Shown in pieces: positions 4,341-5,068 of a DNA stretch of 8,731 nucleotides. A program made the position numbers and the translations under genes. The notes under the pieces were generated by a model that saw only the letters and a list, made by a program, of their open reading frames with translations, ran no database searches and was not told the origin of the DNA. The stretch's first letter is position 1, and each line of letters starts with the position of its first letter. This DNA is from Candidatus Nitrosopelagicus sp. (GTDB lineage Archaea; Thermoproteota; Nitrososphaeria; Nitrososphaerales; Nitrosopumilaceae): positions 1 to 8,731 of the forward strand of contig DTTB01000088.1 of assembly GCA_012964965.1 (NCBI GenBank), given 5' to 3'.

Positions 4341-4505
4341 TTGACATGTTTTTGTGGTTGTGAAAATTTTGAAAAAAATCCAAATGGTAGATTTCTTGCA
4401 TGCGTAAAATGTGGTCATGGGCGACAAAATCATGATGATGAATTTAGGGCATCTGCAAGAACGAATGAAGAGCAATCACAAAAACGTGATAGTGATTTTG
4501 GTTAA
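4341..4505 (+). CDS. Small zinc-ribbon protein, 54 residues, TTG start
   Basis: This short frame opens with TTG at 4341 and stops with TAA at 4503-4505. An in-frame TGA lies two codons before the TTG, so no longer form is possible. The product begins with a cysteine-rich TCFCGCENF (Cys3, Cys5, Cys7), then has CVKCGHGRQNH (Cys21, Cys24, His26, His31), enough ligands for one zinc site of the zinc-ribbon type. The last 20 residues are polar and probably disordered. A strong Shine-Dalgarno GGTGATG sits 4 bases before the start. The gene follows the DtxR-like gene by 48 bases on the same strand and is probably co-transcribed, which suggests a metal-related or nucleic-acid-binding role. I do not recognise a named family. 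Cysteine spacing, Shine-Dalgarno and context support a real gene. Confidence 0.65.
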   Translation: MTCFCGCENFEKNPNGRFLACVKCGHGRQNHDDEFRASARTNEEQSQKRDSDFG

Positions 4506-4535: not shown

Positions 4536-4600
4536 TTGCAGGCTCAGAACTCAAGATCCTCATCATCTATTCAAAGGGATAAGCTCATCAATGCCTGCAA
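4536..4600 (-). ncRNA. Box C/D guide sRNA (2'-O-methylation guide)
   Basis: On the minus strand an 8-bp perfect terminal stem (TTGCAGGC at 4600-4593 with GCCTGCAA at 4543-4536) encloses all expected boxes in order. They are C box TTGATGA (4591-4585), a 10-base guide GCTTATCCCT (4584-4575), D' box TTGA (4574-4571), a 3-base ATA spacer, C' box GATGATGA (4567-4560), a 12-base guide GGATCTTGAGTT (4559-4548), and D box CTGA (4547-4544). Between the stem and GATGA there are exactly three unpaired bases (ATT). With CTGA next to the opposite strand of the stem, this is the standard kink-turn with tandem G-A pairs bound by L7Ae. Size and guide lengths fit archaeal C/D sRNAs. C and D' vary from consensus at one base each. 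By the N+5 rule the D guide would direct methylation of the C in AACUC of target AACUCAAGAUCC. No strong promoter is seen upstream (an ATTAGTATTT-like element lies at 4616-4625). Confidence 0.78.
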
Positions 4601-4641
4601 ATCGTAGTTTAAGCAAATACTAATTGAATCTTTCAAGAAGC

Positions 4642-4651
4642 TTGATAAATA
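4642..4651 (+). promoter_or_regulatory. TATA-like element before the 131-residue protein gene
   Basis: TTGATAAATA is centred about 27 bases before the ATG at 4673, the spacing expected for a leaderless archaeal transcript. It probably drives this gene and perhaps Pelota. The call rests on position and composition. Confidence 0.45.
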
Positions 4652-4672: not shown

Positions 4673-5068
4673 ATGGTAAAAATAGATGCTGCCACATCAT
4701 TGGAAAACTTTCGAAGATTCACGATAGTAAGCACTTGCAGTTCATTTGCTCCTGAAAGCTATTCAGAAGATCCTGAAGTTTTTCCTGAGCGCGAAGAAAG
4801 CCTTGGTTCCATATACGTTGAGGCTGCTGATAAGGTGACTTTAAAGAAGATCAGAAATATTACGTTTGTGAATGCAAGAGATGTGTTAGGCATCATCTAT
4901 AATTCAAAGACTGGAAATACAAGTCTAAAGTGGCGCCAGTTTAGACACAATAGTGGTAAAGTTACTGGAGAGGCTTCATCAAATTCTCTTGTAAACTTGG
5001 CACAAAGCGGTGTTATTACCCTTGATTGGGTAGAAAAATACGTTCAAAAAATGACGCAAAAAAATTGA
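4673..5068 (+). CDS. Hypothetical protein, 131 residues, upstream of Pelota
   Basis: I do not recognise this protein. It is soluble, with no signal peptide or membrane segment. The N-terminal third is rich in Ser, Glu and Pro (about residues 23-45, including a PEVFPEREES stretch) and is probably flexible. The middle and end look folded, with alternating strands and helices (ITFVNARDVLGIIYN around 63-77, a basic KWRQFRHNSGK around 86-96, and a helix with ITLDWVEKYVQKM near the end). There is one Cys (22) and no metal motif. The start ATG at 4673 is the first in frame and sits at leaderless distance from a TATA-like element. Its stop is 31 bases before the Pelota ATG on the same strand, so the two may be co-transcribed. 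Codon use and AT content resemble those of its neighbours, so it is likely a real, lineage-restricted gene. Confidence 0.7.
   Translation: MVKIDAATSLENFRRFTIVSTCSSFAPESYSEDPEVFPEREESLGSIYVEAADKVTLKKIRNITFVNARDVLGIIYNSKTGNTSLKWRQFRHNSGKVTGEASSNSLVNLAQSGVITLDWVEKYVQKMTQKN

Follow-up and report, generated by a model that had tools for sequence, protein, structure and literature searches.

Minus-strand positions 4600 to 4536 of the window (the whole 8,731-nucleotide stretch of Candidatus Nitrosopelagicus DNA analysed here, from an archaeon akin to marine ammonia oxidisers) carry, in order, the C, D', C' and D boxes and the closing stem of an archaeal box C/D guide sRNA, as read directly from the sequence. 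We consider it highly likely, with a probability of about 0.9, that this is a minus-strand sRNA that recognises the anticodon arm of tRNA-Leu(CAA) through its D guide and directs 2'-O-methylation of the wobble cytidine C34. The preliminary description had proposed a box C/D guide sRNA without naming a target; its identification is supported by architecture, conservation and stem covariation, and the evidence now points to C34 of tRNA-Leu(CAA) as the guided position.

Architecture of the sRNA locus

The sRNA lies between two ORFs, one of 54 codons that ends at 4505 and one of 131 codons that starts at 4673; its features are given below (A2 being the alignment of relatives described in the next section).

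4536–4600, minus strand: box C/D guide sRNA, comprising the core and its closing stem (sequence; Rfam snoPyro_CD at E 0.00014, below gathering; 78 of 80 loci with the D guide and D box)
4593–4600, minus strand: closing stem, 5' arm TTGCAGGC (conserved as pairs only at the inner six positions 4593–4598; 381 of 384 cells paired)
4585–4591, minus strand: C box TTGATGA (alignment A2)
4575–4584, minus strand: D' guide GCTTATCCCT, 10 nt, without established target (ATCCC in 55 and ATCCT in 15 of the 76 rows, the other 6 having neither)
4571–4574, minus strand: D' box TTGA (TGA invariant across the 64 rows of A2)
4560–4567, minus strand: C' box GATGATGA (TGAT invariant in A2)
4548–4559, minus strand: D guide GGATCTTGAGTT, 12 nt (12 base pairs formed with the spliced tRNA-Leu(CAA) of the relative G009; C34 opposite G4552, which is fifth from box D)
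4544–4547, minus strand: D box CTGA (identical in all 64 rows of A2, variable in more distant genomes)
4536–4543, minus strand: closing stem, 3' arm GCCTGCAA (inner six positions 4538–4543; same pair count as the 5' arm)
4622–4650, no strand assigned: conserved block with the inverted repeat TCAAG-AAG-CTTGA (4633–4645), between the sRNA and the plus-strand gene

The boxes, standing near their consensus and separated by guides in the range of about 10–12 nt, agree with the preliminary description, as do the guide lengths of 10 and 12, the eight-base-pair stem of the window and the intergenic position. Neither flanking ORF has a Pfam match, including the neighbour labelled earlier as a zinc-ribbon gene. 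A three-base bulge followed by GATGA opposite CTGA corresponds to a kink-turn, its geometry being judged from sequence. The first base of the C box is T in the window and G or A in many relatives; the C-box consensus begins with A or G.

An Rfam search (cmscan, E ≤ 1) returned snoPyro_CD (RF00095), the Pyrococcus C/D sRNA family, as the best match on the exact stretch (E 0.00014), but the score of 35.6 bits lies below the gathering threshold of 45 by which membership is defined. In 20 related loci, taken from neighbour genomes of the window, no Rfam family reached its gathering score, and a search of open-licence PMC papers for Nitrosopumilus together with box C/D sRNA found no paper.

Conservation and covariation among relatives

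Related loci were fetched through homologues of the 131-aa protein encoded next to the sRNA (4673–5068, plus strand; 3377 relatives at E ≤ 0.001), and the best 80 of 182 confirmed stretches in species genomes were compared, their titles naming Nitrosopumilus, Nitrosarchaeum, Nitrosopelagicus, Nitrosotenuis, marine group I and others. Loss of boxes and stem beside a retained flanking gene, an outcome that the preliminary description had held to speak against an sRNA, was looked for; instead, a 15-mer comprising D guide and D box is letter-perfect in 78 of these best 80 loci, on the strand opposite to the neighbouring gene. Two loci lack it: the contig of L061 stops 63 nt upstream of the gene, and L001 carries another sequence upstream and no sRNA at this place; in one of the 78 (L075) the 5' half is replaced by a TA repeat. 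Across 101 genomes of the class of genome G005, which we take to be Nitrososphaeria, the 15-mer occurs once each in 53, and the same letters read backwards, used as a control, in none.

The 78 loci and the window, without L066 (contig end), L069 (N letters) and L075 (TA repeat), give 76 rows, and alignment A2 comprises the 64 distinct ones. The inner six stem pairs, in which 381 of 384 cells are paired in the 64 rows, include an A-U for a G-C at one pair in nine rows and a U-A for a C-G at another in two rows. The covariation score was reached by none of 500 shuffles, the count of paired cells by 17 and the number of pairs with two-sided changes by 7, and further pair types did not rise above shuffles (325 of 500 as good). 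Compensatory changes in relatives, which had been suggested as a check, are present. The perfect eight-base-pair stem described earlier exists in the window in all its pairs and is conserved at six of them, the outer two being paired in 17 and 25 of the 64 rows.

A covariance model built from the 64 rows matched 173 of 200 genomes of the class at E ≤ 0.01 under stricter filters, with 98 matches below 1e-12 by manual count. The 56 hits that we fetched were for the most part weaker, with at least six of them being the second hit of their genome and four belonging to the 98 strong matches; the D guide core is GATCTTGAG in 48 of the 56, a retrieval that is biased towards this guide since the model was built with it. 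One genome (G051) has the 15-mer and no model hit. The remaining eight hits (L300, L379 and L410–L415, central ~68 bases) represent a sister C/D sRNA with the D guide GATTATGAG, complementary to CTCATAATC. It is probably aimed at a tRNA with the anticodon CAU, either elongator Met or Ile, whose anticodon loop would again bring C34 to the fifth position; a search of loci for such a tRNA gave none.

The stems of the distant copies were compared in 46 of the 48 Leu-guide copies, excluding L290 (short flank) and L418 (TA repeat). These 46 hold 26 different 5' arms, and pairing is kept at 231 of 276 stem positions, a mean of 5.0 of 6, compared with 3.75 of 6 for swapped arms given the same freedom. 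In distant genomes of the class the stem sequence has thus been replaced and yet pairs, with the D guide core unchanged. Such replaced stems look to be more independent evidence than retrieval by the model, because a model built with the guide leans towards it.

The flanks suggest how the sRNA may be expressed. Within the block at 4622–4650, TTATCAAG is present in 71 of 76 sequences (window included), 49 of the 76 have TTGAAAG 34–36 nt ahead of the stem, and CTTGATAA precedes the ATG of the gene by 31–33 nt in 15 of the 17 loci looked at. We infer from this arrangement that the block may be a compact divergent promoter shared by sRNA and gene. A flanking block of this type accompanies only 5 of the 46 distant copies, and a TATA-like word lies 11–32 nt before the sRNA in 27 of them, whereas bins lying further upstream hold 0–5 of 46 and the bin nearest the sRNA 11 of 46. 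Of the two origins suggested in the preliminary description, an own promoter or processing from an antisense transcript, the TATA-like words favour the former, and the sRNA would be independently transcribed.

The D guide and tRNA-Leu(CAA)

The D guide, 5'-GGAUCUUGAGUU-3', forms 12 pairs with 5'-GACUCAAG/AUCC-3', one of them a G-U next to box D, and brings its fifth nucleotide from box D, G4552, opposite the wobble base C34 of tRNA-Leu(CAA). The fifth nucleotide from the box is the position that the rule in the excerpted text of PMC4644070 assigns to modification. Among the targets of the relative G009 (16S, 23S, 28 tRNAs of 43 RF00005 matches, and tRNA-Leu(CAA)), spliced tRNA-Leu(CAA) gave the best score, 39, followed by the unspliced form with 33 and by 23S with 30, and 6 of 2000 shuffled D guides reached 39. 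Complementarity across the fifth nucleotide was found in this way for the D guide and not for the D' guide, for which 828 of 2000 shuffles were as good. The 11-mer complement of the D guide occurs at 17 places in ten genomes, ten of them the sRNA itself and seven without shared context as judged by eye.

Finding the tRNA depended on the search used: a D-arm tRNA pattern missed the Leu tRNA, ARAGORN did not call five intron-containing Leu genes, and a T-arm pattern found the Leu tRNA in five of six genomes, the sixth yielding only another tRNA. In five genomes (G001, G004, G005, G008 and G009) tRNA-Leu(CAA) carries a short insert after CTCAAG, which we read as a putative intron after position 37. 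A strict tRNA-Leu(CAA) pattern is present in 35 of the 101 class genomes, and 34 of these 35 also contain the 15-mer, the exception being G054, which has neither 15-mer nor model hit. Twenty further genomes held 15 Leu(CAA)-like genes, four of which (G014, G200, G196 and G156) run through CTCAAGATCTGC without an insert at 37/38; these insert-free genes would fit the assumed splice junction, though their 5' side looks irregular. At the centres of L325, L328, L329 and L330, Leu(CAA)-like genes have an anticodon stem seemingly interrupted before the anticodon (GCAG ... CTCAAGATCTGC), perhaps by an intron at an unusual place.

Spliced and unspliced forms could be compared in 26 of the 35 genomes with the strict pattern. 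Guide pairing was better with the spliced tRNA in 4 of the 26, equal in 5 and worse in 17, because the first bases of the intron also pair with the guide. With 4 of 26 in its favour, we rejected the notion that splicing always improves the target, though pairing within the intron may confound this comparison. It is a tentative thought, and to us a rather unlikely one, that sRNA and tRNA-Leu(CAA) intron were shaped together, with wobble methylation occurring on the unspliced pre-tRNA and tied to splicing.

On the molecular level, L7Ae, Nop5 and fibrillarin would assemble on the C/D and C'/D' motifs by analogy with other C/D RNPs, the D guide would engage the anticodon arm of tRNA-Leu(CAA) through its 12 pairs, the G-U included, and fibrillarin would place a 2'-O-methyl group on C34 opposite the fifth guide nucleotide. 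Fibrillarin is reported in excerpts of PMC8481954 to be nearly ubiquitous in archaea. What the sequences show is the architecture, its conservation, the covariation of the stem, the complementarity and the agreement with the position rule; transcription of the sRNA, assembly of the RNP, methylation and any effect on decoding are predictions from the sequence and its comparison.

Alternative explanations

A different function for a real C/D sRNA would be to guide rRNA modification mainly through D', either in 16S before the 530 loop or at A2448 of 23S (E. coli numbering, by alignment), with the tRNA pairing being secondary. The D' guide of G009 does pair at 10 positions (3 G-U) with 16S AGGGGTGGGC before the 530 loop and forms 8 pairs with 23S AGGGATAACA, the 23S loop pattern being matched in 17 of 20 genomes, and 55 of the 76 rows retain ATCCC; against this, the best target match of the D' guide is at chance level, with those 828 of 2000 shuffles equally good. 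The D' guide also becomes AGCCC in many other genomes, a change that the rRNA sites do not follow. We dropped the 16S site, where the expected compensatory change is absent and which is unlinked to D' variation, and set aside A2448, as the rRNA sites do not vary along with D'. No common D' site emerged across the genomes compared, and conservation is far higher in the D guide than in D', so that a main role in rRNA guiding appears improbable; the D' guide is probably an orphan, or else specific to a lineage. In the course of these comparisons a second, bacterial-looking 23S fragment was seen in an archaeal assembly (L135, G004:C171), probably a contamination.

The conserved stretch could alternatively be a regulatory DNA element or the leader of the plus-strand gene at 4673 rather than an RNA gene, as it adjoins this gene in 78 of 80 loci and the block between them may serve the promoter of the gene. 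Yet the D guide occurs with a pairing stem also where that stem is quite different and mostly where the flanking block is missing, and the pattern of kept and variable positions follows the rules of C/D sRNAs, which makes this explanation very improbable. A chance arrangement has in its favour that the boxes are short and that the single-strand fold outperforms shuffled sequences only moderately (z −2.68; 4 of 200 shuffles fold as well). A loose four-box descriptor matched once in the window and twice in 3000 first-order Markov windows, but none of those 3000 combined four boxes with a stem of at least 5 bp, as the preliminary description, which had called the arrangement very unlikely by chance, would lead one to expect. 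Chance, which merits next to no weight, is already refuted because of the conservation at 78 of 80 loci. We therefore retain the C/D sRNA directed at C34 of tRNA-Leu(CAA).

A 2'-O-methyl group at C34 of tRNA-Leu(CAA), the same mark as predicted here, is made in bacteria by TrmL and in eukaryotes by FTSJ1/Trm7, which are protein enzymes working without guide RNA. Among archaea, Pyrococcus has C/D sRNAs with C34 targets that include tRNA-Leu(CAA) (PMC7994747); such guides also appear in excerpts of PMC7668247, where the C34 site of tRNA-Leu(CAA) is called predicted and detection in that tRNA is not stated. The window sRNA resembles them in box C/D architecture and in having one guide aimed at position 34, with the same C34 for tRNA-Leu(CAA), and it shares what defines the Pyrococcus tRNA-Leu(CAA) guide, a D or D' guide aimed at C34; it differs in belonging to another archaeal lineage, and the likeness is one of description. 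The intron-encoded sR50 (PMC7994747), which lies in pre-tRNA-Trp, is likewise a box C/D guide for Cm34 of a tRNA, but that guide is supplied by the intron of the tRNA itself, whereas the window sRNA is a separate gene, though its target tRNA has an intron. Because Pyrococcus C/D sRNAs with C34 targets have been described (PMC7994747 and the excerpts of PMC7668247), the kind is already known, and what we describe is a widespread sRNA family, in effect new, of a known kind, the archaeal C/D guide.

The analysis has provided a covariance model for a family without a gathering-threshold Rfam match in the 20 loci tested. It directly predicts Cm34 in tRNA-Leu(CAA), and the family offers a sequence-defined marker for predicted RNA-guided wobble methylation across one archaeal class.
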